Assembly: GCF_014196765.1 (NCBI RefSeq)
Contig: NZ_JACIEE010000018.1
Coordinates: 1-38,871, forward strand
Direction: 5' to 3'
Source: Mycoplana azooxidifex
GTDB taxonomy: Bacteria; Pseudomonadota; Alphaproteobacteria; Rhizobiales; Rhizobiaceae
Length of the DNA stretch: 38,871 nucleotides
The notes below the pieces were generated by a model, which saw only the letters and a program-made list of their open reading frames with translations, did no database searches and was not told the DNA's origin. Every line of letters starts with the position of its first letter. Positions within the stretch are counted from its first letter, which is position 1. The translations under genes were made by a program, and so were the position numbers. Shown piece after piece: positions 24,177-38,871 of this stretch.

Positions 24177-24728
24177 TTAGATGGTCCAGTCTTCGATGCG
24201 TAAGCCGGCCACGCGATCAAACTCGCGCCGGCTGTTTGTCACCACGATTAATCCGCGGGAGCGCGCGTGCCCTGCGATCAGTTGATCATACGGCCCGATA
24301 GGGGTTCCGTTCCGAGCGAGTTCTGCACGCAACTGGCCTGTATGGTTGGCCGCTATGTCATCATAAGGTAACACCTCGAGTCGGGCCGCAAAACCCTCAA
24401 CAACGGCCAGATTGCGCTCTTGGCTCGCTGACTTTTCTGCCCCGTAAATCAACTCCATCAAAGTTACTGAGCTTATGCATAGTTGACCGTGGTGGCGATT
24501 GAACGCATCGCGCACCTGCAAGGCAGGCTGATCACGTTCGCTCATGAAGTCGGGGGTTGCCGCCGCACCCTCGAACCAGCTATCCCAAGCCTCCCCGGCG
24601 GGAGCTATAATTCGAGTGCGCCCAACCGCAACGATATCAACACGCTTCACATCATCAGGCAGAGCGACGGCCTTTGGCAGCCGAATGGCCTGGCTACGAT
24701 TACTCTGGAATACCGCACCCTGTTCCAT
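24177..24728 (-). pseudogene. In-frame VapB-VapC fusion with the toxin N-terminus deleted
   Basis: Residues 1 to about 69 are a VapB antitoxin with its AbrB-like DNA-binding start (GAVFQSNRSQAIRLPKAVAL) and tail ending ERDQPA. From about residue 70 the protein continues as VapC: VRDAFNRHHGQLCISSVTLM, then ELIYGAEKS and GTPIGPYDQLIAGHARSRG. The normal VapC start, including the first catalytic aspartate in a LDTNICI-type motif, is missing, and there is no antitoxin stop. A deletion of probably under 100 bases near 24520 explains it. The remaining acidic residues (ME, PYD) are kept, but ribonuclease activity is unlikely. The start has AAGGGA. Repressor function by the VapB part could persist. 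Confidence 0.75.
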
Positions 24729-24945
24729 GACGTACTCCCTTGAATTTCCTTGTTCGAAGGCACCCGTCAGTTCCGTTCGATCCATTATGCGATCGTTTCA
24801 GCACATACAATGCACACAACACGTTGCAGCGCGAGCCCATTTTTTGGAACGTTCGCACATGGTTTGACAATCGTCCGGCACGGCTTCCAATACAGAAGTG
24901 ACGTGCTTTCGCGAAGGCCCCAGCTTCACCTCCGTGCCTTTGCAA

Positions 24946-25701
24946 CTAGCTTAGTACGATCCCGCCGTCGACATTTAGCGTCTGCCCGGTGACGAATGCG
25001 GCGTCGTCCGAAGCGAAGAAGGCGACGGCGCCGACGACGTCTTCGGGATCCCCGATACGCCGCATCGCGGTCTTGTCCTGCCAAGTCTTGCGGACCTCCG
25101 GATCGTCGAGGTTCACGCGGCCCATGTCGGTGAGGATGATGCCAGGGCAGACGCAGTTGGCCGTAATTCCGTCGACCCCGACCTCCTGCGCCAGGACGCG
25201 GGTGAAGCCCATGACAGCTGCTTTGGAGGCCGAGTAATGTGCCTGCTCGGGCGCGCCATGCTTGCCGCCGATGGAGGCGATGTTGACGACACGGCCGTAC
25301 TGGCGTGCCTTCATCATCGGCAGCACCGCCTGGGTGACCAGGAATGTGCCCTTGGCGTTGACGTCCATGACGCTATCCCAATATTCCTCCTTCAGCCCGT
25401 CGACCTCGCCGGCGATCAGAATGCCCGCATTGTTGACCACCGCATCGAGATGGCCGAAGGCATCCGCGACGGCCCGGGCCATCGCCTCGACCTCGCCCTT
25501 GCTGCTGACGTCGGCAAGGACCATGACCGCGCGGCGACCGAGCGCCTCGATCTCGCTTGCCACCTCGGCCAGTACGCCCTCCTGCCGCGCGATATCGTTG
25601 ATTGCGACATCGTAGCCGCGCGCGGCAAGGCCGATCGCGATGGCGCGGCCGATGCCGCGGCTTGCGCCCGTTACGAGCGCGGTGCGGTTGGAAGCAGTCA
25701 T
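24946..25701 (-). CDS. Short-chain dehydrogenase/reductase
   Basis: This 251-residue classical SDR has the cofactor motif TGASRGIGRAIA at residue 10, NNAG near 88, catalytic serine in NIASIGG and the Tyr-Lys pair in HYSASKAA near 155, plus the C-terminal GQTLNVDGG. An asparagine-aspartate after strand 2 (AINDIARQ) suggests NAD(H) preference. The start at 25701 has GGAGG, 15 bases past the original stop of the preceding SDR gene. It is the last gene of the long sugar operon and probably oxidises or reduces a hydroxyl of the pathway intermediate. The 217 bases between this gene and vapB show nothing recognisable. Confidence 0.9.
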   Translation of the reverse strand: MTASNRTALVTGASRGIGRAIAIGLAARGYDVAINDIARQEGVLAEVASEIEALGRRAVMVLADVSSKGEVEAMARAVADAFGHLDAVVNNAGILIAGEVDGLKEEYWDSVMDVNAKGTFLVTQAVLPMMKARQYGRVVNIASIGGKHGAPEQAHYSASKAAVMGFTRVLAQEVGVDGITANCVCPGIILTDMGRVNLDDPEVRKTWQDKTAMRRIGDPEDVVGAVAFFASDDAAFVTGQTLNVDGGIVLS

Positions 25702-25715
25702 GTCAGTCCTCCAGA

Positions 25716-26486
25716 TTACAAGGCGGTATAGCCGCCATCGATCGTCAACACTGTCCCAGTGATGTAGCTCGATGCGTCGGCGGCCAGGAAAAGAACGGCA
25801 TTGGCGATTTAACGCGGCTCGCCGAGACGCCCCATCGGCGTCATGCGCATCCAGGTGTCGAACCACTCGGGATTGCTGCGGCCGCGCAGGGTGAGCTCCG
25901 TGCCGACATAGCCGGGCGCAACGGCGTTGACGCGCACGCCGCTCTTCGCCCATTCGACGGCAAGCGACTTTGTCAGAAGGTTCACCCCGGCTTTGGCCGC
26001 GTTGTAGGATATCTGCGGCTGCGGATAGACCGTCACCTCGCCGCAGATCGAGGAGATGTTGACCATAACGCCGCGACCGGCAGTGACCATCCTACGACCG
26101 AAAGCCTGGGCACAATGGAAGACGCCGCCGAGATTGATGTCGAGGACCGCTTTCCAGTCGTCTCGGCTCATCTCGAGAGCCGGGGCGTTGCGCACGATGC
26201 CGGCGTTGTTGACGAGCACATCCACGGCGCCGTGATCGGCGTAGATCGCCTCTACCGCCACTCCGACGGCGGCCGCGTCCGTGACGTCGAGCGACACGAA
26301 GACTGCCTTGCCGCCGCCGACCTCGATCGCCGAAGCGACGGCCCTCCCCTCGGCCTCGTCAATGTCGGCGACGATGACATGGGCGCCGGCGCCGGCAAGA
26401 CGCTCGGCAATCTCCCGGCCGATGCCACGCGCGGCCCCCGTGACGACGGCACGCTTGCCGTCGAGCCTGAAGTCGGCGTCGCTCAT
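25716..26486 (-). pseudogene. Short-chain dehydrogenase gene with an in-frame nonsense codon
   Basis: The gene has all classical SDR motifs: TGAARGIGREIAERL, NNAGIVRN, serine in NISSICGE and YNAAKAG. Translation stops at TAA 25809-25811 after GRLGEPR. The same frame then continues IANAVLFLAADASSYITGTV and ends GGYTAL at the expected terminus 25716. SDRs normally have GEPxEIA here, so a single GAA-to-TAA change explains it. The truncated 225-residue product lacks the last helix and strand that close the cofactor and dimer interface. It overlaps the kinase gene upstream by ATGA. It is probably inactive unless the stop is suppressed or is a sequencing error. Confidence 0.8.
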
Positions 26487-27988
26487 GCGGATTTTCCTCC
26501 CTCGCGAATGGATTTCAGCGCGGGATAGAGCGCCCGGTATTGCTGATAGATGCCGTCATAGAGTGCAGTCTCGCGGGCGCGCGGTTCGATGCGCTTGCCG
26601 GGACGAACCATGGCGGCGATGCCGTCGTCGATCGTGGCGAAGTGCCCGGCGCCGTGCGCGGCAAGGACGGCGGCACCGACCGATGGCGCGTCGCGCGAGG
26701 CCGGCACGCAGACCGGAAGGCCGGCGGTATCGGCATGGATCTGCAGCCACAGGTCCGAAGCGCCGGCACCGCCGCCGATGGTGATCTCCGCGCCGCGATA
26801 GCCCGCCTCGGCCATGGCATCGAGAATGGCGCGCGTGCCGAAACCGATGCCTTCCATGATGGCGCGGAAGATGTGATGCGGCTCATGGGCGAGCGTCAGG
26901 CCGACGATGGCGCCGCGCGAGAGCGGATCGGTATAGGGCGTGCGGTTGCCCTGGAAATGATCCTGGACCAGCAGGCCGTCACATCCGGGCTCAAGCGCCG
27001 CCGCCTTTCGGTTGAGCGCTTCGAGCTCCATCGTTCCGTTCATCAGGCGCCCGAGCCAGGCGATGATCGAACCGGTCGACGTCTGCCCGCCTTCGACGAT
27101 ATAGCGATCCGGATAGACGCAGTCGCGATAGGTGCCCCAGACGCCCGGCGCATGGACGGCCTTCTCCGTGACGCCGAACTGCAGGTGGGACGATCCTGTG
27201 ATCAGGGCGAGCTGGCCGGGTTTGGCGACCCCGAGGCCGATCATGCCGATCAGCGCATCGGCACCGCCCTGCATGACTTTGACCCTTGTAGAAAGACCGA
27301 GCTCCCCTGCCGCCTTTGCGGAAAGATTGGCGATGACGCCGCCGGGCGCGACAATTCGCTCCGGCCATTTGTCGAGCAGCGCCGAAAGGCCGAGCTTCTC
27401 CACCAGCGTCCTTGCCCAGCCGCCACGGTCGGTCTGGTAATGCCAGCGCAGCGTCACGTTGTTGAGGCTGGCGGCGCGTTCGCCGGTCAGCCGCATCGTC
27501 ATGAAATCCTGGTATTCGCAGATCGTATGGGCGTTTTCAAAGATTTCCGGCTCGTTGCGGGCGATCCAGAGCGCCTTCGGGATCATCCACTCGGCGGAAA
27601 CAGGCCCCTTGCCGCCTCCGTTGGAAATCAGCGCGTCGTCGCCGGTTGCCAGCACCGCATCAGCCTCGGCATTGGCGCGCACGTCCATCCAGATGATCGC
27701 CGGCCGCAGCGCCTTGCCGTTGCGGTCCAGCGCCACCACCGTGCAACTCGTCGTCGCCAGCGTAATCGCCTCGATGGCGGCCGGGTCGACCCTCGCCTCC
27801 GAAATGGCGCCGCGCGACGCCTGCACGAACGCGTTCCACCAGTCTTCCGGATTCTGTTCGGCGCGGGCGCCGGCCGAGAATCTGGTTTCATAGGGTACGG
27901 CGACGCTGCCAAGGCAGGTGCCGGACAGGTCGTAGACCCGTGCGCGAAGACTTTCCGTACCGCCGTCGGCAGTCAAAAAATAACCCAT
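26483..27988 (-). CDS. FGGY-family carbohydrate kinase
   Basis: This 501-residue kinase has the two-domain FGGY layout: phosphate-binding start LTADGGTESLRARVYD, the substrate-domain segments LRPAIIWMDVRA and GADALIGMIGLG, ITGSSHLQFGV, and the C-terminal ATP-domain motif ITIGGGAGASDLWLQIHAD (G-G-G). It should phosphorylate a ketose, polyol or related sugar with ATP. The start at 27988 follows GGGAGGAG. It is flanked by the AhpD-like gene upstream and overlaps the nonsense-bearing dehydrogenase gene. The exact sugar cannot be read from the sequence; xylulose, ribulose and erythritol kinases are all relatives. Confidence 0.88.
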   Translation of the reverse strand: MGYFLTADGGTESLRARVYDLSGTCLGSVAVPYETRFSAGARAEQNPEDWWNAFVQASRGAISEARVDPAAIEAITLATTSCTVVALDRNGKALRPAIIWMDVRANAEADAVLATGDDALISNGGGKGPVSAEWMIPKALWIARNEPEIFENAHTICEYQDFMTMRLTGERAASLNNVTLRWHYQTDRGGWARTLVEKLGLSALLDKWPERIVAPGGVIANLSAKAAGELGLSTRVKVMQGGADALIGMIGLGVAKPGQLALITGSSHLQFGVTEKAVHAPGVWGTYRDCVYPDRYIVEGGQTSTGSIIAWLGRLMNGTMELEALNRKAAALEPGCDGLLVQDHFQGNRTPYTDPLSRGAIVGLTLAHEPHHIFRAIMEGIGFGTRAILDAMAEAGYRGAEITIGGGAGASDLWLQIHADTAGLPVCVPASRDAPSVGAAVLAAHGAGHFATIDDGIAAMVRPGKRIEPRARETALYDGIYQQYRALYPALKSIREGGKSA

Positions 27989-28020
27989 TCTGTTCTCCTC
28001 CCGCGTCTTCTCCCTCAAGA

Positions 28021-28051
28021 CGCGACCTCGACACGCGACCTCGACACGCGA
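28021..28051. repeat. 13-bp tandem repeat, about 2.4 copies
   Basis: CGCGACCTCGACA is repeated exactly at 28021-28033 and 28034-28046, with a partial third copy CGCGA to 28051. It lies in the short gap between the AhpD-like gene and the kinase gene, just upstream of the kinase ribosome-binding site. It is likely replication slippage; a role in spacing or translation is possible. Confidence 0.6.
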
Positions 28052-28059
28052 GACAGGCG

Positions 28060-28395
28060 CTATTGCAGCGCGCGCATGATTTCCAACGCCTTCGCACCGT
28101 ACATGACGGCGGGGCCGCCACCCATTTCGACGGCGACCTCGAGCGCCTCCACGAGCTCGGCCTCCTTCGCGCCATGCCTGAGGGCGGCATCGACGTGATA
28201 GAGAATGCAATCCTCGCAGCCCTTGGATACGGCGATCGCGACGGCCAGCAGTTCCTTTTGGGCCGCAGTGAAGGTGCCGGACGTTGCCGCCACCTTGCTG
28301 ACCCGCGCAAAACCGCCGAAAAGCTCGGGGCTCGCCTTTGCCAGCGTGCCGATCCGGCGCTGGGCGTCCTTCAGTTTTTCCGATGCATCGGACAT
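28060..28395 (-). CDS. AhpD-like carboxymuconolactone decarboxylase-family protein
   Basis: This 111-residue protein contains the AhpD signature E-x11-C-x2-C-x3-H, seen as KELLAVAIAVSKGCEDCILYH around residues 46-66. Proteins with this motif act as alkylhydroperoxidases or thiol-disulfide relays. Mycobacterial AhpD is recharged by the dihydrolipoyl domain of an E2 subunit. That makes its place 10 bases after a lipoyl-carrying E2 gene notable. It may protect or couple to the lipoyl groups of this complex. Carboxymuconolactone decarboxylation itself is unlikely given the CxxC. Confidence 0.87.
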   Translation of the reverse strand: MSDASEKLKDAQRRIGTLAKASPELFGGFARVSKVAATSGTFTAAQKELLAVAIAVSKGCEDCILYHVDAALRHGAKEAELVEALEVAVEMGGGPAVMYGAKALEIMRALQ

Positions 28396-28405
28396 GGCCT
28401 GATCC

Positions 28406-30007
28406 TCACGCTAGAAGAATGTCGACGACGTCCTTCGTCTGGTCCCATTGCGGCATGTGACCGGAGCGGGACAGAAGATGGACGGCGACGCGGGGCGGAA
28501 GCGAGAGAACGTGCTTCCATGGAATGATCCTGTCCTCCAGGCCGAAGAGCACCCGAACCGGCAGGGATGCCGGGAGCTTCTGGAGCGCCGCAAGACTGTC
28601 GACGCGCTGGCCGGACGGACCGGCAACCGCTTCCGCGAGAGCGACAAGCCGCCCCTTCGCCAGGTCCGCCGTGAGCGCTGCAAGGGCCGCTTCCGAAAGG
28701 TCCACGCCGTTCACCGACAGGCGGCGCAGCAGATGCGCGACTTCGCCGGCGGTCTTCGCCCCCGCCATGCCCCGGATGAAATGGCCGTCGATCTCCGCAC
28801 CAAGCCCGGCCGGGGCGATGAGCGACAGGAACGCGACACGCCGGGGCGCCGCCGAAGCCAGGCCGAGTGCCGCCACCGCACCCAGCGAATGGGCAACGAC
28901 ATCGATCCTGTCGACGCCGAGCGTGTCGAGGAAGGCCGGCAGGTCATGGGAAAGCTCGGCGGAACTTGCCGCTTCGATTTCCGTCAGGCCATGACCCGGT
29001 AGATCGGGGACGATCACCCGTTTTCCGGCCCGCTTCAGGCTAGAGGTGACGCCCGCCCAGGTCGTGCGATCGCCGGAGAAACCGTGCAACAGCAGGACCG
29101 GATTTCCGCTGCCCGCGCCGGTATCGAGATAGGCCATGCGGCCGCGCTTCAAGGGCGCGAAATGGACGTCCGAGGGAGCGGCAGATGTGCTCGACGCGGG
29201 TGCAGCACCCGCGGCCGCGAGGACATCTTCCTTCTCGATGCGGCCGCGTCGGCCCGTGCCGCCGATCGTGGCGATGTCCAGCCCATGCCGCCGGGACAGA
29301 CGCCGCGCGAGTGGCGTTGCGCGAACCCGGCTATCGACCGGAGTGGTGCCGCGGCCTGATGATCTCTGCGCAACCGCGGGAGCAGCGTCACCGGATTGCA
29401 ATGCAACGGCCGCTTCCTCAGCATGGGGAATGCTGTCGGCCGGAACCTCGATCCGCGCGATCGGATCGCCGACTGTTACCATCTCGCCGTCTTCGCGCAG
29501 GATGCGCACGAGGCGACCTTCAGTCAGCGCCGGAAATTCCGCGGTGGTCTTGTCCGTCTCGATCTCGATGATCGCCTCGCCGCGGACGAAGCTCTCGCCC
29601 GGCGACTTCAGCCACTTGGCAACGCGCCCCTCTTCCATCGTTTCGCCGAGGCGCGGCATGGCGAGATCGGTCTCGATCCAACCGCCGGCTTCCATGGTCG
29701 ATGCGACGGCAGCCTCGGCCGCGGGCTCCGCCTCCGCGCCTTCCTCCGCCGTCCAGTCCGGCCCTGCGCCGATGTCGATCCGGGCCAGCGCCGCGCCGAC
29801 CTCCACCGTATCGCCGATCGAGACCAGCACTTCATGGAGCGTGCCGTCCCCCAGCGCCGGGAATTCGGCGATGGTCTTGTCCGTCTCGATCTCGATGATC
29901 GAATCGCCGCGGCGGAAGCTGTCGCCCGGCTTGATCAGCCAGCCGACGACCTTGCCCTCGTCCATCGTCTCGCCGAGGCGAGGCATTTTCAGGATGCGTT
30001 CGCTCAT
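28406..30007 (-). CDS. E2-like protein: two lipoyl domains, peripheral-subunit-binding domain and alpha/beta hydrolase (AcoC-like)
   Basis: This 533-residue protein begins with two similar lipoyl domains whose lipoylated lysines lie in ETDKTIAEF (K44) and ETDKTTAEF (K153). A peripheral-subunit-binding domain follows at about 228-263 (RATPLARRLSRRHGLDI, RGRIEKEDVL). The C-terminus from about 285 is an alpha/beta hydrolase with LLLHGFSGDRTTWAG, nucleophile motif VAHSLGAV and a late histidine in SGHMPQWD. Normal E2 proteins end in a chloramphenicol-acetyltransferase-like core. The hydrolase ending is the form known from AcoC of acetoin dehydrogenase, though a second lipoyl domain is less usual. 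The start overlaps the E1 beta stop by ATGA. Confidence 0.9.
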   Translation of the reverse strand: MSERILKMPRLGETMDEGKVVGWLIKPGDSFRRGDSIIEIETDKTIAEFPALGDGTLHEVLVSIGDTVEVGAALARIDIGAGPDWTAEEGAEAEPAAEAAVASTMEAGGWIETDLAMPRLGETMEEGRVAKWLKSPGESFVRGEAIIEIETDKTTAEFPALTEGRLVRILREDGEMVTVGDPIARIEVPADSIPHAEEAAVALQSGDAAPAVAQRSSGRGTTPVDSRVRATPLARRLSRRHGLDIATIGGTGRRGRIEKEDVLAAAGAAPASSTSAAPSDVHFAPLKRGRMAYLDTGAGSGNPVLLLHGFSGDRTTWAGVTSSLKRAGKRVIVPDLPGHGLTEIEAASSAELSHDLPAFLDTLGVDRIDVVAHSLGAVAALGLASAAPRRVAFLSLIAPAGLGAEIDGHFIRGMAGAKTAGEVAHLLRRLSVNGVDLSEAALAALTADLAKGRLVALAEAVAGPSGQRVDSLAALQKLPASLPVRVLFGLEDRIIPWKHVLSLPPRVAVHLLSRSGHMPQWDQTKDVVDILLA

Positions 30008-30984
30008 GCCAGCATTCTCTCGGCGACCTCGGCGATGCTGCGCGCGGACGGCACGCTGCCGGCTTCCAGTTCCTGCGAGACCGAAATCGGGACGTCCTCG
30101 CCCGCGACGCGCACGACCGGCTGCTCCAGGAAGTCGAAGCATTCCTCGGAAATGCGGGCGGCCAGTTCGGCGGCGACACCGGAGGTCATCACGCCTTCGC
30201 TGACGACCATGGCCTTGCCCACGCGCTCGACATGTTCGCGCACCGTGTCGAAATCCAGCGGATTAAGCGTCCTGAGATCGATGACCGTCGCTTCGATACC
30301 TTTCTTAGAAAGAGCCTCGGCGGCTTCGAGCGCGTAGAACACCTGGCGGGAATAGGTGACGATGACGAGATCGTCTCCCTTTCGCCGCACGGCGGCCTTT
30401 CCCCACGGCAGGGGATCGGCGTCGAAATCCACGTCTTCCTTGCGGGTGTAGAGCGCCTTGTGCTCGATGAAGACGACTGGATCTGGCTTGGTGAGGCTCT
30501 GGCGCAGCAGGTGATAGGCATCAGCCGCCGTCGCCGGCATGGCGAGCCGAAGGCCGGGCGTGTGCATGACCCAGGCCTCCAGGCTCTGCGAATGCTGGGC
30601 GCCTGCCGAGCGGCCCGTGCCGCCCTGCGTGCGCAGCACCATCGGCACGCCGATCTGGCCGCCGAACATGTAGCGGATCTTTGCCGCCTGGTTGGCGAGC
30701 TGGTCCATCGTCATGCCGAGAAAGTCGATGTACATGAGCTCGGCCACAGGCCTGAGCCCCGTCATCGCCGCGCCGACGGCGGCGCCGATGATGGCGGGTT
30801 CGGAAATCGGCGTATCGATCAGCCGTTCCGGGCCATGGGTCTTGATCAGGTCCTTGGTGACGCCGTAGGCGCCGCCGTAGCGGCCGACCTCCTCGCCGAT
30901 GACGACGATGGTGCTGTCCTCGGTCATCGCATCGTCCAGCGCCTTGCGCAGGGCGTCTCTGTAAGTGGTCGAGGTCATCATCAT
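30004..30984 (-). CDS. 2-oxo acid/acetoin dehydrogenase E1 component, beta subunit
   Basis: This 326-residue transketolase-like protein has the E1 beta hallmarks IGEEVGRYGGAYGVTKDL, DTPISEPAIIGAAVGAAM, the GGTGRSAGAQHSQS loop and C-terminal SEGVMTSGVAAELAARI. With the alpha subunit it forms the thiamine-diphosphate site and reductively acylates the lipoyl arm of the adjacent E2. It overlaps both neighbours by ATGA, so all three subunits are coupled. The set is most like acetoin dehydrogenase AcoA/AcoB/AcoC because of the E2 type. Pyruvate or branched-chain substrates are not excluded. Confidence 0.92.
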   Translation of the reverse strand: MMMTSTTYRDALRKALDDAMTEDSTIVVIGEEVGRYGGAYGVTKDLIKTHGPERLIDTPISEPAIIGAAVGAAMTGLRPVAELMYIDFLGMTMDQLANQAAKIRYMFGGQIGVPMVLRTQGGTGRSAGAQHSQSLEAWVMHTPGLRLAMPATAADAYHLLRQSLTKPDPVVFIEHKALYTRKEDVDFDADPLPWGKAAVRRKGDDLVIVTYSRQVFYALEAAEALSKKGIEATVIDLRTLNPLDFDTVREHVERVGKAMVVSEGVMTSGVAAELAARISEECFDFLEQPVVRVAGEDVPISVSQELEAGSVPSARSIAEVAERMLA

Positions 30985-32009
30985 GCATCATCCCTGGCGA
31001 GTACGCGATCGATCCGGCTGCCTACGGCTTCCGGTTCGGGTTCTCCGACGGCATAGACGTCGCGGAACATCGAGGTGAGCGGCGGCGCCTTGGACTCCAC
31101 GGTGAAGTCGATCGTGGCGTCCATCTCTGCAGCGATGTCCTTGTCCGTCGCATCGAGCGCGGACTCCGTCTCCAGACCGGACGCAATCAGCTTGTTGCGT
31201 GCAAAGAGGACCGGGTCCTTCTTGCGGCCTTCCAGCTCCTCCGCTTCCTCGCGGTAGGGGCTCTTGTCCATGCGCGCATGGCCGAAGAACCGGTAGACAT
31301 CGATGGACAGAAAGCCGGGCTTGCCCCCGCGGGCGTCATCGACAAGCCAGCGGGCCGCCGACTGAACCTCCTCGACGTCGAGCCCGTCGACCACAACGCC
31401 GTTGAGGCCGAAGGCCTTGGCGCGCTGGTCGAAAGCCGTGTTGCTGGTCGCCTGGTCGATGCGCGTTCCCATCCCGTACTGGTTGTTGATGCAGACGAAG
31501 AGGACGGGCAGGCCCCAGAGTGCTGCCATGTTCATGCTCTCGTAGAGAATGCCCTGCTGCATAGCGCCGTCGCCGAAGAAGGCGATCGAGACCGAATCCT
31601 GCTTCAGGCATTTGCTCGACAGGCCGGCGCCGACCACGGCTGGAATGCCGCCGCCGACGATCGCGTTGGCGCCGAGATGGCCGAGCGCCATGTCGGCGAT
31701 GTGCATCGAGCCGCCCTTGCCGCGGCAGTATCCGCTTTCTTTGCCGCCGATCTCCGCCATCATCTGCTTCGGATCGGCGCCGCGGGCGAGAAAGATGCCG
31801 TGGCCACGATGGTGGGTGGTGAAGGTATCCTGCGGCTTCATCGCCGAGGACACGCCGGCAGCGCTCGATTCCTCGCCGATCGACAGGTGCAGCATAGACC
31901 CGGCCGACTGGCCGCGGATGAAGAGTTCACCGACCCGTTCCTCGAAGGTGCGGATGCGCCGCATCGTCCGGTAGAGCTCGAGAAGGTTGGAATTGACAGG
32001 AGCGCCCAC
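30981..32009 (-). CDS. 2-oxo acid/acetoin dehydrogenase E1 component, alpha subunit
   Basis: This 342-residue protein carries the thiamine-diphosphate motif GDGAMQQGILYESMNMA ending INNQYGMGT (GDG…NN) near residues 145-178. It also has HHRGHGIFLARGAD near 66, GKGGSMH near 97, and the phosphorylation-loop-like FFGHARMDKSPYR near 240. It starts with GTG at 32009, preceded by AGGAGGG. It follows the importer permease gene by 42 bases, so uptake and cleavage genes share one transcript. No lipoamide dehydrogenase (E3) gene is in the window; the cell's general E3 must be used. Confidence 0.92.
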   Translation of the reverse strand: MGAPVNSNLLELYRTMRRIRTFEERVGELFIRGQSAGSMLHLSIGEESSAAGVSSAMKPQDTFTTHHRGHGIFLARGADPKQMMAEIGGKESGYCRGKGGSMHIADMALGHLGANAIVGGGIPAVVGAGLSSKCLKQDSVSIAFFGDGAMQQGILYESMNMAALWGLPVLFVCINNQYGMGTRIDQATSNTAFDQRAKAFGLNGVVVDGLDVEEVQSAARWLVDDARGGKPGFLSIDVYRFFGHARMDKSPYREEAEELEGRKKDPVLFARNKLIASGLETESALDATDKDIAAEMDATIDFTVESKAPPLTSMFRDVYAVGEPEPEAVGSRIDRVLARDDA

Positions 32010-32051
32010 GCGTCCCTCCTAACAGTTGCATGTGATGTTGACGGGCCGGGC

Positions 32052-33044
32052 CTAGAGCAGCTTCAGCTTGGTGGTCCGGGAGACGATCGCGACTGCGACC
32101 AGGATGATCAGCCCCTTGACGATGCTCTGGATGTACGTGTCCATGCCGATGAGGTTGAGGCCGTTGTTGATGACGCCGATGAACAGCGCACCGAAGAACG
32201 TGCCGGTGACGGTCGCCGTGCCCGGACGAAACATGGTCATGCCAATGAACACGGTCGCCAGGCCGTCGAGCAGGTAGCGCTCGCCGGCATTCGGCTGCCC
32301 GGAGCCGAGACGGGCTGCCAGGAGCATACCGGCAACCGCGGCGAAGAGACTGCAAACGACGAGCGCGGCGGCACGGTAGAAGCGGCCGTTGACCCCCGAC
32401 AGCTCGGCTGCCTTGAGGTTGCCGCCGACCGCGTAGATGTAGCGGCCGAAGATTGTGCGCTCCATCAGGAACCAGGCGAGCACCACGAACAGCATCATCG
32501 CATAGGCAAGCACGGGAATACCTAACAACTGCCCCTGCCCGAACCACAGGTACGTTTCGGGCAGGCCGCCATAGATGGCGCGGCCGCCGGTCGTCAGGAA
32601 GTTGATGCCGTAGAGGATCGATCCGGTCGCCAGCGTCGCGATCAGCGACGGCACGCCGACGAGCGTCACCAGTGCCGAGTTGACGGCGCCGACGAGCACG
32701 CCGGCAGCGATACCGCCCAGCAGCGCAAGCGGCAACGGCACGCCGGAAATCAGCATGAGCGGTACGAGGATGCCGGCGAGACCGACCATGTAGCCGACCG
32801 ACAGGTCCATCTCCCGGGCCGCAAAACCGAAGGTGAGACCCGCCCCGACGATCGTCAGCATCGAAATCTGCTGCACGATATTGAGCAGGTTCGTTGTGGT
32901 CAGGAACCGGTCGACAGTGAGCGCGAAGCCCAGGAAGAGAAGGATGAGCGCAAAGAGCGTGCTGTACTTCAGCATCCAGTCCTTGCGGGCGCGGCCGGAC
33001 GCGGTATCCTTGGCCTGGGCGATGGTGGGGGATGCTGCGTTCAT
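32052..33044 (-). CDS. Ribose-type (CUT2) ABC transporter permease
   Basis: This 330-residue membrane protein resembles RbsC. It has about ten hydrophobic segments, the REMDLSVGYMVGLAGI region, and the CUT2 hallmarks AVGGNLKAAELSGVN and GSGQPNAGERYLLDGLATVFIGM. It ends with GLIILVAVAIVSRTTKL. It overlaps the ATPase gene by ATGA. Only one permease gene is present, so the channel is probably a homodimer, as in ribose importers. Confidence 0.92.
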   Translation of the reverse strand: MNAASPTIAQAKDTASGRARKDWMLKYSTLFALILLFLGFALTVDRFLTTTNLLNIVQQISMLTIVGAGLTFGFAAREMDLSVGYMVGLAGILVPLMLISGVPLPLALLGGIAAGVLVGAVNSALVTLVGVPSLIATLATGSILYGINFLTTGGRAIYGGLPETYLWFGQGQLLGIPVLAYAMMLFVVLAWFLMERTIFGRYIYAVGGNLKAAELSGVNGRFYRAAALVVCSLFAAVAGMLLAARLGSGQPNAGERYLLDGLATVFIGMTMFRPGTATVTGTFFGALFIGVINNGLNLIGMDTYIQSIVKGLIILVAVAIVSRTTKLKLL

Positions 33045-34555
33045 TGGAGGACTCCTGCCATGGCAGATATGAAGCGGTTCTCGGAAAAGTTGCCCTGGTC
33101 TATCTCGCCGGAGGCGCGCCTGTTGACAAAGGGGATGACGCGATCGGAGACATCGCCGATCTCCAGGAGATCGGAGGACGCGACGATGATGGCCGTGCCC
33201 TGCCCGGCAAGCCGTTTCAGGTGGCCGTGGATTTCGCGCTTGGCGCCGATATCGACGCCTTCGGTCGGCTCGACGAAGATCATCAGGCTGTAGCGTTCGT
33301 CGGCGCCGTAAAGCCACTTGCCGATCGACACCTTCTGCTTGTTGCCGCCGCTCAAGTCCTTGATCATCTGCGACGGCGAATGGGCCTTGACGTTCAGGAG
33401 TGACATGATCTTTGAGGCTTCCCGCACCTCGCGCGTGTTCGAGAGCACGCCGGATCCGCCGAAGGTCGCATGCTGGGGATGGACCATGGCGAGGTTCTCG
33501 CGCACGTCCCAGTCCGCCACCAGCGAATTTTCCATGCGCTGGTCGGGAATGAAGGCGACGCCGCGCTTCTGCATCGTGCGCGCATGGATTCCTTTCAGGA
33601 CCTCGCCCTTGAAGCGGCAGGTGCCGGAAATCAGCCCCTCGCCGGTATAGATCGACCGGGCAAAGCCGAAATGGCCGGCGCCGGTGAGGCCGATCAGGCC
33701 GACGATCTCGCCGGCGCGGACCTGGAAGCGATCCACCTCGACGGCGCCGGCCTTCCAGCCTTCGATGTCCAGCACCGTGTCGCCGAGGCGCCGCTCGACA
33801 GCCCTCTCCGTCGATGCGGCGGCCACGCTGCCGGAGCGCTGGAGCATGAAATCGACCAGTTGCGCTTCCGTCGCGTCTGCGGCCGCAAGCGTCGAGATGT
33901 GGCGCCCGTCGCGGAGAACCGTGATGCGGTCGCTGAGTGCCTTCACCTCGGAAAGGAAGTGGCTGATCAGGACGATGCCGATGCCGCGCGCCGGCAGGGT
34001 CTTTATGATGCGCCAGAGATTTTCCTTCTCGCGGGCCGGCAGCGTCGCGGTCGGCTCGTCGAGGATGAGGAGCCTGATATCGCCGCGCAACGCCCGGACG
34101 ATCTCGATCACCTTCTGGTCCGCCATCGGCAGGCTGTCGACCGGCCTGTCGAGATCGATCGAAACCTCCGGGAACCAGCGGCCGACGAGTTCGGCCGCGC
34201 GCCGCTTCAGTTCGCCCTTGTTGATAATGCCGAAGCCGATGCGGGGTTCGTCGCCGAGCAGGATGTTCTGCTCAGCAGTCAGTCCCGGGACGAGGCTTCC
34301 TTCCTGCGAGACATGGGCGATCCCCTTGCGGAGCGCATCACCGGCGCTGTGGAGGACGAACTCGATGCCATCGATGGAAATGCGGCCGGACGTCGGCTGC
34401 CTGCTGCCGCCAAGGATGCTGACGAGTGTCGTCTTGCCGGCGCCGTTCTCCCCGATGAGACCGTGCACCTCGCTGAAGCGGAAGTCGATGCTGACATTGT
34501 CGAGCGCCCGGGTGCCGGGATATTGCATCACGATGCCGGAAAGGCTGACGGACAT
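33041..34555 (-). CDS. Ribose-type (CUT2) ABC transporter ATP-binding protein, double cassette
   Basis: This 504-residue protein has two nucleotide-binding domains, as in RbsA. The first has Walker A GENGAGKTT, Walker B LLILDEPTATLP and ISHFLSEV. Its signature region is SLPMADQKVIEIVRAL. The second has signature LSGGNKQKVSIGKWL, but Walker A is degenerate (LTGAGHFGF). Its Walker B reads LMIFVEPTEGVD, so the usual aspartate before the glutamate is valine. A weak second Walker A is usual for the family; the valine is not. The start at 34555 has GGAGG. It powers import of the operon's sugar. Confidence 0.9.
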   Translation of the reverse strand: MSVSLSGIVMQYPGTRALDNVSIDFRFSEVHGLIGENGAGKTTLVSILGGSRQPTSGRISIDGIEFVLHSAGDALRKGIAHVSQEGSLVPGLTAEQNILLGDEPRIGFGIINKGELKRRAAELVGRWFPEVSIDLDRPVDSLPMADQKVIEIVRALRGDIRLLILDEPTATLPAREKENLWRIIKTLPARGIGIVLISHFLSEVKALSDRITVLRDGRHISTLAAADATEAQLVDFMLQRSGSVAAASTERAVERRLGDTVLDIEGWKAGAVEVDRFQVRAGEIVGLIGLTGAGHFGFARSIYTGEGLISGTCRFKGEVLKGIHARTMQKRGVAFIPDQRMENSLVADWDVRENLAMVHPQHATFGGSGVLSNTREVREASKIMSLLNVKAHSPSQMIKDLSGGNKQKVSIGKWLYGADERYSLMIFVEPTEGVDIGAKREIHGHLKRLAGQGTAIIVASSDLLEIGDVSDRVIPFVNRRASGEIDQGNFSENRFISAMAGVLQ

Positions 34556-34626
34556 CCTGCGGCCTCCAAAAAAATGAACGGGATAGGCCCCGCCTGCCGG
34601 CGGAACCACCAAGAGCATGCCTTGAA

Positions 34627-34654
34627 GGGCCGGCTCCACAGATGGAGCCGGCCC
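34627..34654 (-). other. Strong intercistronic hairpin after the binding-protein gene
   Basis: GGGCCGGCTCCA (34627-34638) pairs perfectly with TGGAGCCGGCCC (34643-34654) around a 4-base loop, starting 8 bases after the binding-protein stop. Only two Ts follow on the minus strand, so it looks more like a partial terminator or message-stabilising stem that keeps binding-protein transcript levels above those of the downstream genes. Confidence 0.6.
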
Positions 34655-34662
34655 GCCGACGG

Positions 34663-35610
34663 TCACTGCGGGAGGAAGTCCCTGCAATTCTGCTTGGTCA
34701 CGAGAGGCGCATCCATGTAGACGGTCTTCGAAGGGATGACCGTTGCCGGATCCTCCTTCTTCTCGACGATCGCCTCAATCCATTCGCCAGCCTGCGCACC
34801 CATCTTCTCGAAGGGCTGGCTGACGGTTGCAATCATAAGGCTGTCCGGCTTGCAAACCTCGGCGACGGCCTGCGGGTGGCCGTCGATGCCGATCACCTTG
34901 ACGTTCTTCAGGCCGGCAGCCGTCAGTTCGTTGATGGCGGCCTGGGCCGGCTCGTCCCAGGGAGCCCAGACGGCATTGATCTCTTCGCCGAACCGCGAGG
35001 CGTAGTCCTGCATCGTCGAGGTCGTGTCTTCGAAGAAGGCGGTGTAGTCGATATTGTGCTCGGCCAGGACCTTGATGTCCGGATATTCCTTGAGGATCGT
35101 CTCCATCACGTCGCCGCGCTTGCGCGTGCCATGGTGCTCGGCCATGCGCAGGAAGATGATGCTGCCCTTGCCGCCCATCTCGTTCAGAAGATAGGGCGAG
35201 ACATCCGACGACATCGCCCAGTTGTTCGTGGTGATGTCGACGAGCACGCCATCGATGTAACCGCTGTCGACGGTGATGACCGGGATCTTGGCGGCAATTG
35301 CCGCATCAAGTGCGGCGCGCGATGCGCGCAAATCCGCCATGGTGATGATGATCGCATCGACGCCGCGCGAAGCCGCGTCCTGCAGGTTCGACGCCGTCCG
35401 TTCGCCCGATCCGCCACTGTCCAGCAGGCTGACGTTCCAGTCCTTGCCCGTCTCCACCAGCCAGGCATCGAAGCCTGCCTTGACGCGCTGTTCGGACTGG
35501 GCGGCAGCATTGGCATGCACCCAGGCGAGATTCAGCGCATTGGCGCTGGCAGCACTCCACAGAAATCCAGCAGCGGCGACGATGGCCGCTTTCCTCCACA
35601 TTCCAGACAT
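34663..35610 (-). CDS. Sugar ABC transporter substrate-binding protein (RbsB-like)
   Basis: This 315-residue protein has a signal peptide (KAAIVAAAGFLWSAASANA) and the periplasmic-binding fold of ribose-type importers: GFDAWLVETGKDWNVSLLDS, DAIIITMADLRA, GIDGHPQAVAEV. The start at 35610 follows GGAGGAG at normal spacing and is preferred over the upstream in-frame codon at 35640 and the ATG at 35601. It is the first gene of the long operon, divergent from the SorC-type regulator. Ligand identity is unknown; the binding pocket cannot be read off confidently. Confidence 0.9.
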   Translation of the reverse strand: MSGMWRKAAIVAAAGFLWSAASANALNLAWVHANAAAQSEQRVKAGFDAWLVETGKDWNVSLLDSGGSGERTASNLQDAASRGVDAIIITMADLRASRAALDAAIAAKIPVITVDSGYIDGVLVDITTNNWAMSSDVSPYLLNEMGGKGSIIFLRMAEHHGTRKRGDVMETILKEYPDIKVLAEHNIDYTAFFEDTTSTMQDYASRFGEEINAVWAPWDEPAQAAINELTAAGLKNVKVIGIDGHPQAVAEVCKPDSLMIATVSQPFEKMGAQAGEWIEAIVEKKEDPATVIPSKTVYMDAPLVTKQNCRDFLPQ

Positions 35611-35693
35611 TTGATCTCCTCCACAGCGGGCTCTCCACATTGACCCGCTTTTCCATTCGCGCTCAGTAGGCGAATGAGCTCATTGAAATTCAC

Positions 35694-35732
35694 CTTGTTA
35701 CAAATGTCAAACAAAATTACATTTGTAACAAG
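35694..35732. promoter_or_regulatory. Perfect 14-bp inverted repeat: operator for the SorC-type regulator
   Basis: CTTGTTACAAATGT (35694-35707) and ACATTTGTAACAAG (35719-35732) are exact reverse complements with an 11-base spacer, in an AT-rich island. It ends 11 bases before the regulator start and lies 84 bases before the importer operon. Each arm also contains a smaller dyad (TTACAAATGT-like), so a tetrameric SorC/DeoR protein could bind. It would control both the operon and the regulator. Confidence 0.75.
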
Positions 35733-35743
35733 CAGGAGAAGCC

Positions 35744-36718
35744 ATGTCTGAAGATGACGATGAATTGATGGTCCGCGCCGCCTGGTACTACTATGTCGGC
35801 GGGTTCAATCAGGAGATGACCGCCGCCCGCCTCGGGCTGACGCGGGCCAGGGTCAACAAGATGCTGTCGGAGGCGCGGGAAAGCGGGCTGGTCAGCATCT
35901 CGATCGATCACCAGCGCGTCGGCGTCCTGCCGCTCGAGGACACGCTCAGCGCGCGGTTTAATCTCGACTTCTGCATCTCGACGCCTGCCTTCGGCTTTCA
36001 CAACACGCCGGGCGACAGCGAAGTGCGAAAGCAGATCGCCTTTCGGGCGGTAGGCGTCGCCGCCGCAAACCACCTGAAGACGCTTCTTTCGGATAACGGC
36101 ACACTAACGGTGGGCACCGGATGGGGGCGGACGATCGAGCAGATGACGCTTCAACTCGCCGGCGTGCGGGCGCCCCATGCGCGCTTCATATCCGTGATGG
36201 GATCGCTGACGGCCAACAACGCGTACAATCCGTTCGAAGTGGTGCACAGCCTTGCGCGGCGCACCGGCGGTCAGGGTTTCTTCCTACCCGTCCCGTTCAT
36301 TGCGGATTCGATCGACGACAGGAAAGTTCTGCTTTCGCAACGCTCGGTGGTCAAAGCCATGGAAATCGCTAAGACGGCCTCGGTCTGCATCATCAGCGCC
36401 GGCGAACTCACCGAAGACTCGCTTCTGAGACGCCAAGGTATGATCAGCAGTGTCGAACTCGAAAGCCTGCGGTCAGTGGGGGCGGTCGGGGATACCAACG
36501 GCATCTTCTTCGATAGCGAAGGAAGACAGGTCGACCACGACCTCAACAGGCGCACGATCGCACTCGGCTTCATGGAACTGAAGACACTACCCGTTATCTT
36601 GCTAATCGCCGGCCAGGAGAAAGCGATGGCAGCCAAAGCGCTATTGCGCAGCGGTATTGTCAATGGCCTCATTATCGACGGAGACGCAGCCGCCGCGCTT
36701 GATGCACTTGGCCCGTGA
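35744..36718 (+). CDS. SorC/DeoR-type sugar-binding transcriptional regulator
   Basis: This 324-residue protein has an N-terminal helix-turn-helix (WYYYVGGFNQEMTAARLGLTRARVNKMLSEARESGLVSISI) and a SorC-type sugar-phosphate-binding domain with VGTGWGRTIEQM near residue 125, VMGSLTANNA and the C-terminal GQEKAMAAKALLRSGIVNGLIID. Such regulators respond to phosphorylated sugars, which fits the kinase in the divergent operon. The start at 35744 follows CAGGAG and the 14-bp inverted repeat. It is probably the specific repressor or activator of 24946-35610. Confidence 0.92.
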   Translation: MSEDDDELMVRAAWYYYVGGFNQEMTAARLGLTRARVNKMLSEARESGLVSISIDHQRVGVLPLEDTLSARFNLDFCISTPAFGFHNTPGDSEVRKQIAFRAVGVAAANHLKTLLSDNGTLTVGTGWGRTIEQMTLQLAGVRAPHARFISVMGSLTANNAYNPFEVVHSLARRTGGQGFFLPVPFIADSIDDRKVLLSQRSVVKAMEIAKTASVCIISAGELTEDSLLRRQGMISSVELESLRSVGAVGDTNGIFFDSEGRQVDHDLNRRTIALGFMELKTLPVILLIAGQEKAMAAKALLRSGIVNGLIIDGDAAAALDALGP

Positions 36719-37509: not shown

Positions 37510-38871
37510 GTAAGTGGGGCAAATTCGGTGGCAGTTCGCTTAGCGGCCCGCCCTTGAGGTGTGCATAGAGGCGGTATTCGGGAGAAGCTGTTGGCGGCAG
37601 GGATTCCCCAGCTGGGGCAAATCATGATTCGATTCCGTCATGACCAAACGGCTCCCCTCCCCCGAGCATGCCGACACGCTTTCGCTGAAAGCGCTGCGCA
37701 GTTTGGTGACAGGCCTTGTCGATCGGGTCGAGGTTCTGTCCGCTGAGGTCAAGGAACTGCGCGAAGAGAACGCCGTCCTTCGCGAGGAGAACGAAATCCT
37801 GCGGCTAGATAATCCGCGGCTAAAGGTCGACAACCAGATGCTGCGCGATGAGATCGCCCGCCTCAAAGATCTGCCTCCTCGACCACCTTTTCGCCCGTCC
37901 GGGATGGACAAGGCAACGGACGCCATATCTGCCGACAGACCGCGGCCGAAGAAACCTCGCGGACCAAAGCTCGATGTGAAGCGGATCAGCCGGGAAGAGA
38001 TACTGCCGATCAATCCGCCGGCGGGATCACGCTTCAAGGGATACCGGACTTGCATGGTGCGCGACCTCGTGCTGATGGCCGAGATCGTGCGGTACCGCCG
38101 CGAGTGCTGGATCACCCCGGAGGGTTCTGGCACCGCTTCCCGCCGGGGTGGTCGGCGGGTATGGCGCCAACCTTAGGCGGATTTGCCTGATGCTGCATAC
38201 ACAGGGTCAGGTCACGACGCAGCGATTGACGACCTTGCTGAATGATATCGGCATCGACGTGTCGAAGCGTCAGGTCGTGCGGCTTCTGACCAGAGGAATG
38301 GATGGCTTGGCTGCCGAGGATTCAGCGGTGCTGCATGCCGGCTTGGTGTCCTCCGATTACGTTACTGTCGATGATACTGGCGGCCGATATTTCCATAATC
38401 CGTGTTACGCCACACAAATTGGCGGCCCGAACTTCACCGTTTTCCGCACCACGCCGTCGAAGTCGCGGCTGAACTTCTTGTCCCTGCTGCGTGGCAATTA
38501 TCAGGACTACGTTCTCAACGATGCCGCCTTCGATTATCTGGACCAGCGGCATGGTACCGACCCAACTCTCGTCGCCGGACTGCGAACCCGAACACCACAG
38601 CACTTCTGCAATGAGATTGCCTTCCTTCACTATCTCGCCAGCAAGGGAATCGACATCTTCGACAAGGAGGCAATCCGGCCGCTCGCCGAAGCCGGCATCT
38701 GGGGTGCGATCCGCCATCATGGCCTGATCGGCAAGGCGGTGATTGTGTCCGACGACGCCGGCCAGTTCCGCGTCGGCACCCATGCACTGTGCTGGGTTCA
38801 TGCCGAACGTCTGCTGCAGAAACTGATGCCGGCCGCGCCTGGGCAAGTGCGACAGGTCGAAACTGTCCGGG
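37510..38871 (+). mobile_element. IS66-like insertion element, left part (runs off window)
   Basis: The element begins at about 37505-37530, where the interrupted cyclodeaminase coding ends and GTAAGTGGGGCAAATTCGG starts. GTAAG is a common IS66-type end. TGGGGCAAAT recurs at 37612-37621 just before the transposase. The right end and target duplication lie outside, so the exact boundary is not confirmed. Confidence 0.65.
37640..38871 (+). pseudogene. IS66-like transposase gene, frameshifted and incomplete at the window end
   Basis: The first frame (37640-38176) encodes a leucine-zipper-like coiled coil (about residues 25-80), PPRPPFRPSGMDKATD, and RFKGYRTCMVRDLVL up to RECWITPEG. At about 38123-38128 the correct reading jumps to another frame, continuing LAPLPAGVVGGYGANLRRIC without a stop to the window end. 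That second part holds the DDE-type motifs YVTVDDTGGRY and VIVSDDAGQFRVGTHALCWVH, with the family segment NFLSLLRGNYQDYVLND. A few bases seem lost at the junction. No slippery run is present there, so a disabling frameshift is likelier than programmed recoding. Confidence 0.8.

Follow-up and report, generated by a model that had tools for sequence, protein, structure and literature searches.

An FGGY sugar kinase kept beside an acetoin-dehydrogenase-type E1/E2 complex in Mycoplana azooxidifex and its relatives points to a possible catabolic route for 1-deoxyketoses

What does an acetoin-dehydrogenase-type complex do inside a sugar-uptake operon? The question is raised by a stretch of 38,871 nucleotides from Mycoplana azooxidifex (contig NZ_JACIEE010000018.1, positions 1 to 38,871; hereafter the window), in which ten genes between positions 24946 and 35743 encode a CUT2 sugar importer, the E1-alpha, E1-beta and E2 subunits of a thiamine-dependent complex, an AhpD-like protein, an FGGY sugar kinase and two short-chain dehydrogenases/reductases (SDR1 and SDR2), with a divergent SorC-type regulator. 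The initial annotation had proposed that an imported sugar or polyol is oxidised and phosphorylated, and that the resulting phosphorylated acyloin or diketone is split to acyl-CoA and a phospho-aldehyde. This outline gains support, at the level of sequence, from the linkage of the kinase to E1/E2, from a second E1 family linked to the type II reductoisomerase of 1-deoxy-D-xylulose 5-phosphate (DXR-II and DXP, respectively) and from a 5-deoxypentose neighbourhood, and we narrow it to 1-deoxyketose phosphates. Neither a diketone nor a branched polyol is needed for the window operon; for the DXR-II-linked operons, methylerythritol is a possible branched-polyol substrate. With slightly better than even confidence, we read the operon as serving the breakdown of a 1-deoxyketose that most likely has five carbons: the FGGY kinase would phosphorylate the sugar and E1/E2 would cleave its phosphate to acetyl-CoA and an aldose phosphate.

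We kept 80 of 203 E1-alpha relatives (scan of genome contigs) as the window family, at 70–90% E1-alpha identity; in the next E1-alpha groups identity drops to about 45%. The family occurs sporadically (3 of 398 genomes sampled across the phylum, that of M. azooxidifex among the three), and its neighbourhood is largely kept across the 80 loci, with a conservation far above chance. Counting the FGGY kinase as present at 45% identity or more, we found it with E1/E2 in 73 of the 80 loci. Five of the seven remaining loci end at a contig edge, locus L084 has an FGGY of about 45%, just below the threshold, and L077 appears to lack one.

What changes between loci is the importer, by which they divide into type A (window-like, 57 loci), type B (13), type C (4), type D (2) and type E (2), with two unassigned. 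Type A loci carry a homologue of the regulator in 56 of 57 cases, SDR2 in 50, AhpD in 47 and SDR1, which is broken in the window and is the least conserved of these last three, in 43; some of the absences are contig ends. Type B has a D-psicose-3-epimerase-like protein in place of the SDRs (12/13 loci; 159 bits, cut-off 300), with DhaK beside it in 10/13 and an aldo-keto reductase in 11/13, while both type E loci have a beta-hydroxyacid-dehydrogenase-like protein. No AhpD was seen in loci of type B, D or E.

FGGY thus remains with E1/E2 in 73 of 80 loci although the importer and the front-end enzymes differ from one type to another, which makes the kinase plus E1/E2 the constant core of the system. 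The same count rules out a random or independent insertion of the E1/E2 genes, which had been named at the outset as the alternative to check. A constant kinase behind swapped front ends also suggests that the front ends supply one kinase substrate; two of the replaceable sets, the SDRs and the D-psicose-3-epimerase-like enzyme, are by their family assignment ketose-forming or ketose-handling.

We then compared E1-alpha residues between 85 window-family rows and 37 others, namely 12 DXR-II-linked rows, 7 rows from acetoin dehydrogenase (Aco; 5 distinct proteins, two pairs being the same gene fetched twice) and 18 other E1-alpha rows. The positions of interest, 246 and 249, align to the phosphorylation loop of human pyruvate dehydrogenase (PDH), which we take to be the corresponding loop and to lie at the entrance of the active site. 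They are R/K in 85/85 window-family rows and K/R in 12/12 DXR-II-linked rows; the Aco rows have E (6) or S (1) at the first and A (6) or P (1) at the second, and none of the 18 other rows is basic at either. Ser43 follows the same division, being present in 85/85 and 12/12 rows, with Tyr in 7/7 Aco and 16/18 other rows, while positions 66 and 111 (both His in the window) are basic in the window family only. In a maximum-likelihood tree, which drew a long-branch warning and included 12 window-family and 7 Aco rows, the window family (100/99), the DXR-II-linked group (100/100) and the Aco group (100/99) each form one clade, and the window E1-alpha stands outside the Aco clade and apart from the PDH row of its own genome (L107). 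For E1-beta, no phosphate-site residue stood out as clearly discriminating when it was compared with DXP synthase (DXS) and transketolase. An E1-alpha without the basic loop was also seen on plasmid p1 of Shinella sp. H4-D48 (L233), in company with E2, E3, a transaldolase-family gene, phosphatases, FGGY kinases and two importers.

These residues bear on the reading that an unphosphorylated acyloin (acetoin or a small hydroxyketone) is cleaved as by an ordinary acetoin dehydrogenase, the kinase serving a separate branch for the same imported compound. The window operon shares with the aco operons of Mycetohabitans (L111) and Paracoccus (L187) the E1-alpha/E1-beta pair and an AcoC-type E2 with an alpha/beta-hydrolase domain, its E2 exceeds the cut-off of the acetoin-dehydrogenase E2 model, and aco-type operons can also hold SDR and AhpD/CMD genes (L187; L103). 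On the other hand, its E1-alpha forms a clade of its own, with basic residues where Aco has acidic or small ones, and it carries a sugar importer, a SorC regulator and a sugar kinase where L111 and L187 have an AcoX-like NAD kinase and a sigma-54 regulator, neither of which was found among the window operon genes. Moreover, the FGGY kinase is the partner that is kept, AhpD and SDR1 being retained only to the extent given above for type A. We consider cleavage of a free acyloin unlikely. A standard aco or pdh operon was rejected on its own E1-alpha clade, its loop residues, an E1-alpha score below the PDH cut-off and the lack of aco partners.

The AhpD protein keeps the motif E-x11-C-x2-C-x3-H in 54/54 tblastn homologues above 60 bits. 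Electron transfer between lipoyl groups and AhpD is known in mycobacteria, and the window AhpD may by analogy exchange electrons with the lipoyl-E2. AhpD/CMD genes recur beside aco-type E1/E2 and SDR genes (L187, 10912–11241; L103, 3948–4262), a placement that hints at a broader partnership between AhpD and lipoyl-E2.

The E1-alpha groups nearest to the window family include rhizobial proteins of 44–45% identity, encoded in sugar operons of a very different make-up. Those of Rhizobium sp. N324 and Agrobacterium CFBP7129 combine a CUT1 importer and a PfkB kinase with a sugar-binding transcriptional regulator, and have a DRL-family gene directly upstream of E1-alpha, which is followed by E1-beta, E2 and lpdA. 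The two DRL proteins score 229 and 227 bits with Pfam DRL_cat, and because that of N324 matches PDB 3upl with 685 bits over 435 residues (2–436), it is taken on sequence as a true DXR-II and not as a DLO family of the kind treated in excerpts of PMC3847144.

Within the plasmid collection, where many records are close relatives and not independent, the second-family E1-alpha lies immediately beside DXR-II in 29 of 34 records with a DXR-II of at least 72% identity. All five exceptions are Phyllobacterium, and the one examined has a CUT2 importer and DXR-II with no E1 within 8 kb. Conversely, a DRL-family gene is directly adjacent in 32 of 33 records with a second-family E1-alpha of at least 60% identity; the remaining one, Rhizobium sp. 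SSA_523, has no DRL among the matches listed. Since E1-alpha stands directly beside a true DXR-II in 29/34 records, DXP is pointed to, by analogy, as the likely substrate of this second family.

The five loci compared (L185, L186, L219 and L220, and L218 with a DRL-like gene) have DXR-II or the DRL-like gene directly beside E1/E2 (at 8 kb in Priestia). They resemble the window in E1/E2, in a sugar importer or phosphotransferase system (PTS) together with an annotated sugar-binding transcriptional regulator (4/5), in a kinase (3/5) and, in the four alphaproteobacterial loci, in the basic loop and Ser43 of E1-alpha. They differ in combining DXR-II or a DRL-like protein with PfkB, a PTS or, in Priestia, a PTS and FGGY, and in having lpdA in three cases, where the window carries FGGY and SDRs but lacks DXR-II. 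Terrarubrum has a glucitol-type PTS and a DRL of 56% and, like Priestia, shows the link to sugar uptake again; Aminobacter L220 has DXR-II and E1/E2 with no sugar importer or kinase seen nearby. The Gram-positive Priestia unites a glucitol-type PTS, FGGY, a DRL-like gene (43%) and E1/E2/E3 in one locus, and its FGGY, beside the DRL-like gene, is 40% identical to that of the window over 497 residues, compared with 35% for the nearest paralogue in the genome of M. azooxidifex.

DXR-II interconverts DXP and 2-C-methyl-D-erythritol 4-phosphate (MEP), so that DXP would be the metabolite common to DXR-II and the adjacent E1/E2. Since DXR-II is accompanied in these operons by a complex that forms acyl-CoA, by a sugar importer and by a kinase or PTS, their simplest reading is a route in which methylerythritol would be converted via MEP and DXP to acetyl-CoA and glyceraldehyde 3-phosphate. 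The DXR equilibrium favours MEP, and an oxidative pull by E1/E2 would thus be needed. A catabolic role of DXR-II in the five settings is probable. More tentatively, and with a little less than even confidence, we propose that two or more of the E1/E2 families found in sugar operons act as dehydrogenases of DXP or 1-deoxyketose phosphates, one of them fed by a kinase acting on 1-deoxyxylulose-type sugars, as in the window, and the other by methylerythritol via MEP and DXR-II run in reverse.

For the window itself, we infer the reaction steps, the length and stereochemistry of the sugar and the inducer of the regulator from the gene order, families, conservation and residues observed. The CUT2 importer would take up the sugar or its polyol, and SDR2, with SDR1 where it is intact, would form a 1-deoxyketose of the 1-deoxyxylulose type (CH3-CO-CHOH-...), of which the FGGY kinase would phosphorylate the terminal hydroxyl. 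E1, with its thiamine diphosphate, would attack the C2 carbonyl, cut between C2 and C3 and free an aldose phosphate; the hydroxyethyl unit would be oxidised onto the lipoyl-E2 and leave as acetyl-CoA. E3 would be borrowed from elsewhere in the genome, and AhpD is a possible electron partner of E2. E1 enzymes break bonds adjacent to a carbonyl group. Like acetoin, a 1-deoxyketose phosphate (CH3-CO-CHOH-R) is an acyloin; since cleaving it would pass through the same hydroxyethyl-thiamine intermediate, an AcoC-type E2 could release acetyl-CoA from it. In the simplest case, 1-deoxy-D-xylulose would be converted via DXP to acetyl-CoA and glyceraldehyde 3-phosphate, an oxidative reverse of DXS. For both, DXP would stand on one side of the reaction and glyceraldehyde 3-phosphate with a hydroxyethyl-thiamine unit on the other; DXS differs in synthesising DXP from pyruvate, as a single polypeptide and without a lipoyl E2, and a separate DXS is present in the genome (793 bits).

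Part of this chemistry has been described. Excerpts of PMC3424233 report that purified PDH converts pyruvate and glyceraldehyde to 1-deoxyxylulose, that DXP rises about 20-fold in vivo with mutant aceE and ribB genes and that the E. coli FGGY kinase XylB phosphorylates 1-deoxyxylulose; in its reference list, one title concerns the formation of 1-deoxyketoses by pyruvate and acetoin dehydrogenases. By these excerpts, the kinase step has a direct precedent, and the thiamine step one that runs the other way. The E. coli AceE mutants of that work resemble the proposed enzyme as a PDH-type E1 able to yield DXP, and differ in working in the direction of synthesis and as mutants only.

A third line of evidence comes from 5-deoxypentose genes. 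At L041 (a Rhodobacter metagenome-assembled genome), the cluster adjoins MtnK (475 bits, cut-off 275), MtnA and a class II aldolase, which in excerpts of PMC6079011 are parts of the dihydroxyacetone phosphate (DHAP) shunt converting 5-deoxyribose to DHAP and acetaldehyde. We searched the genomes of 49 of the 80 loci for MtnK (the other 31 are mostly rhizobial and Brucella/Ochrobactrum) and found it in 28, of which seven have it within 20 kb of E1-alpha on the same contig; position alone would give about 0.25 (28 x 40 kb / 4.5 Mb). These are six of the 13 type B loci (L041, L054, L055, L059, L060 and L069) and the type A locus L057. Five of the seven have one common arrangement, leaving at least three arrangements overall. 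The shunt, as excerpted, is likewise a route of deoxypentose catabolism, but it proceeds by aldol cleavage without a thiamine complex. Direct use of acetaldehyde from the neighbouring aldolase was considered as a further explanation.

When extended (L130–L137), the seven MtnK-near loci display a roseobacter super-cluster of CUT2 importers, MtnK, MtnA, class II aldolase, aldo-keto reductase, DhaK/DhaL, epimerase and E1/E2/FGGY, of which L057 and L041 carry variants. Outside the count stand a piece of MtnK, at the contig end in L064, and an MtnA that lies at the end of L056.

Several observations weigh against the 1-deoxyketose reading or its extension to two families. Kinase and basic loop are not strictly coupled: no E1/E2 is annotated within 10–12 kb of the FGGYs of Skermanella rosea (50.6%) and two Rubrobacter (43.1% and 41.6%), and at a Shinella sugar locus that combines FGGY kinases with E1/E2/E3 the loop positions hold the non-basic V/P. 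The Priestia E1-alpha keeps only the first basic residue (K/A) and has Cys at 43. The tree does not settle the order of the window, DXR-II-linked and Aco clades, nor whether the two sugar-operon families are sisters, so that the residues they have in common may reflect convergence or ancestry.

With regard to DXR-II, no homologue was found at E <= 1e-20 in any of the 80 window-family loci, nor any DRL at E <= 1e-30 in the M. azooxidifex genome, and DXP is thus carried over to the window by analogy only. Among the 26 listed of the 30 weaker DRL records (below 60%), three have E1-alpha adjacent (Terrarubrum, Pseudoroseomonas and Paracoccus versutus, already contained in the 32) and one, Priestia, has it 8 kb away; 12 C. 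difficile plasmid records have an E1-alpha that shares about 50% identity with the DXR-II-linked one and no DRL among the matches listed. MtnK is 48 kb from E1-alpha in L082, and in the other 20 genomes the two genes are on different contigs or over 1 Mb apart. The chemistry of the 5-deoxypentose neighbours, aldol cleavage, is unlike that of E1/E2 and, by our reasoning, a simple reduction of 5-deoxy-D-ribose at one end with oxidation at the opposite end would lead to a 1-deoxyketose of the L series, so that the two branches need not use the same sugar. Finally, the window E1-beta passes the generic PDH E1-beta subfamily model NF006667, a broad model (357.7 bits, cut-off 321), and SDR1 and SDR2 match many SDR families about equally well, which makes their family names non-specific.

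The length of the sugar is the point on which a close variant differs. An imported 6-deoxyhexitol such as D-rhamnitol or L-fucitol might yield a 1-deoxyketohexose 6-phosphate, to be cleaved to acetyl-CoA and a tetrose 4-phosphate. The enzyme logic would be identical, and a single SDR would be enough, compatible with the type A loci without SDR1; in addition, a FucU-like gene lies near the type B cluster L130 (32 bits, under the cut-off of 141). The links to DXR-II and MtnK/MtnA, however, favour five-carbon sugars, and we reason that the tetrose from several natural 6-deoxyhexoses would be wrongly configured for central metabolism. The six-carbon variant is accordingly rather improbable.

An ordinary ketose phosphate, lacking the 1-deoxy group, would instead leave a dihydroxyethyl adduct on E1, from which E2 would yield glycolyl-CoA next to the aldose phosphate, as in an oxidative transketolase. 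The pentulose-kinase-like FGGY would suit such a substrate, and the psicose-epimerase-like and DhaK/DhaL genes of type B act on normal ketoses. Yet there is no obvious glycolyl-CoA-using gene among the annotated cluster genes, DXP, to which the second E1 family points, is a methyl ketone, and the AcoC-type E2 is associated with acetyl transfer; we judge this explanation improbable. An operon for disposal of autoinducer 2 (AI-2; 4,5-dihydroxy-2,3-pentanedione, DPD), with E1/E2 standing in for the LsrF thiolase, is very improbable: although CUT2 importer, FGGY and SorC are also Lsr parts, and although the regulator matches LsrR with 112 bits and the type B binding protein LsrB with 118, the kinase reaches only 166 of the 528 bits required by the LsrK equivalog, which led us to reject Lsr membership, and scores higher with XylB, none of the ten operon genes, to which this search was confined, was assigned to LsrF or LsrG, and LsrF cuts a different bond.

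The 1-deoxyketose reading refers to the set of genes collected in Table 1. All ten operon genes and the divergent regulator of the initial annotation were recovered at their positions with family calls that hold by profile scores, with the correction that SDR1 is truncated.

Table 1 Genes of the window operon and its regulator, with supporting profile scores or features
Feature	Coordinates	Strand	Evidence
SorC/DeoR-family regulator, divergent, sugar-sensing	35744..36718	+	Pfam Sugar-bind 167.6 bits
CUT2 periplasmic sugar-binding protein (SBP)	34663..35640	-	Peripla_BP_4 111.7 bits
CUT2 ATP-binding protein, two ABC domains	33041..34555	-	ABC_tran, 2 stretches
CUT2 permease	32052..33044	-	BPD_transp_2 126 bits
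E1-alpha, thiamine-dependent dehydrogenase	30981..32009	-	E1_dh 225 bits; R246/K249 (presumed entrance loop), S43, H66, H111
E1-beta	30004..30984	-	Transket_pyr 145 bits, Transketolase_C 123 bits
E2, AcoC type	28406..30007	-	two lipoyl domains, E3-binding domain, alpha/beta-hydrolase acyltransferase
AhpD/CMD-family protein	28060..28395	-	CMD 67 bits; E-x11-C-x2-C-x3-H motif
FGGY sugar kinase	26483..27988	-	FGGY_N 116 bits, FGGY_C 139 bits; near pentulose kinases
SDR1 (truncated)	25716..26486	-	in-frame TAA 25809-25811; best SDR model 203 bits (cut-off 296), first 225 residues
SDR2, intact SDR dehydrogenase	24946..25701	-	adh_short_C2 226 bits

The combination of CUT2 importer, SorC regulator and FGGY kinase is present in full and is conserved in relatives. 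With curated models, the regulator matches DeoR best (156 bits), followed by LsrR, without reaching an equivalog cut-off; the nearest PDB entries of the SBP are 4wt7 (81.6 bits) and 3l49 (80.4 bits), and the ATPase and permease remain under the cut-offs of the AraG (384 bits) and ribose permease (215 bits) models. The kinase is closest to XylB (288 bits, equivalog cut-off 380) and 5C_CHO_kinase (268 bits), both under cut-off. E1-alpha and E1-beta fall below the PDH equivalogs TIGR03182 (316 of 394 bits) and NF008854 (343 of 454 bits), while E2 passes the acetoin-dehydrogenase E2 model NF011457 (458.4 bits, cut-off 307) and has the lipoyl motif ETDK at residues 41 and 150. In Sinorhizobium meliloti Ak57 pSymB (L112, 9004–10322), the E2 is annotated as two open reading frames, a hypothetical protein and an alpha/beta hydrolase, and may be broken in that strain. 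No E3 gene is present in the operon; the genome has three lipoamide dehydrogenases above the family cut-off.

The reading of the genes as one transcript fits their spacing: start and stop codons overlap by four bases at E1-alpha/E1-beta, E1-beta/E2 and FGGY/SDR1, E2/AhpD, SDR1/SDR2 and permease/E1-alpha are separated by 10, 14 and 42 bases, and the largest gaps in the row are AhpD/FGGY (71) and SBP/ATPase (107). Scans of the operon for sigma-70 promoters and terminators gave nothing above shuffled sequences, and the single transcript is proposed from gene spacing. SDR1 is called truncated because SDR-like sequence continues in the same frame beyond its in-frame stop, 225 of about 256 residues being made. 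The stop may be a recent truncation or a sequencing error; homologues are intact in relatives such as Shinella sumterensis L110.

By eye, the flanks bear further traces. Just downstream of the operon (24177–24785, minus strand), an open reading frame resembles a VapB-like antitoxin joined to a VapC-like PIN protein without the usual start and looks like a decayed toxin-antitoxin module; on the regulator side (37640–38176, plus strand), an open reading frame like the N-terminal part of an IS66-type transposase suggests a nearby mobile element.

No paper on the window gene set or on a catabolic DXR-II operon was found in our searches of an open-access library, in agreement with the initial annotation, which knew of no described pathway with this set. 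The passages of the FGGY family paper PMC3245297 contain neither 'acetoin' nor 'SorC', and the texts of PMC10663253 and PMC13001223, in which DXR type II is mentioned, do not contain 'catabol'. The discussion of PMC3847144, as excerpted, raises the redundancy of DXR-II in bacteria with DXR-I as unexplained.

If our reading is true, bacteria run the chemistry of DXP synthase backwards as a food route, in a predicted and undescribed use of 2-oxoacid-dehydrogenase-type complexes on sugar phosphates. Deoxyketoses, and probably methylerythritol too, would gain a bacterial degradation route. DXR-II would then be kept alongside DXR-I because it is catabolic and not biosynthetic, and the redundancy raised in the excerpts of PMC3847144 would become a testable question.

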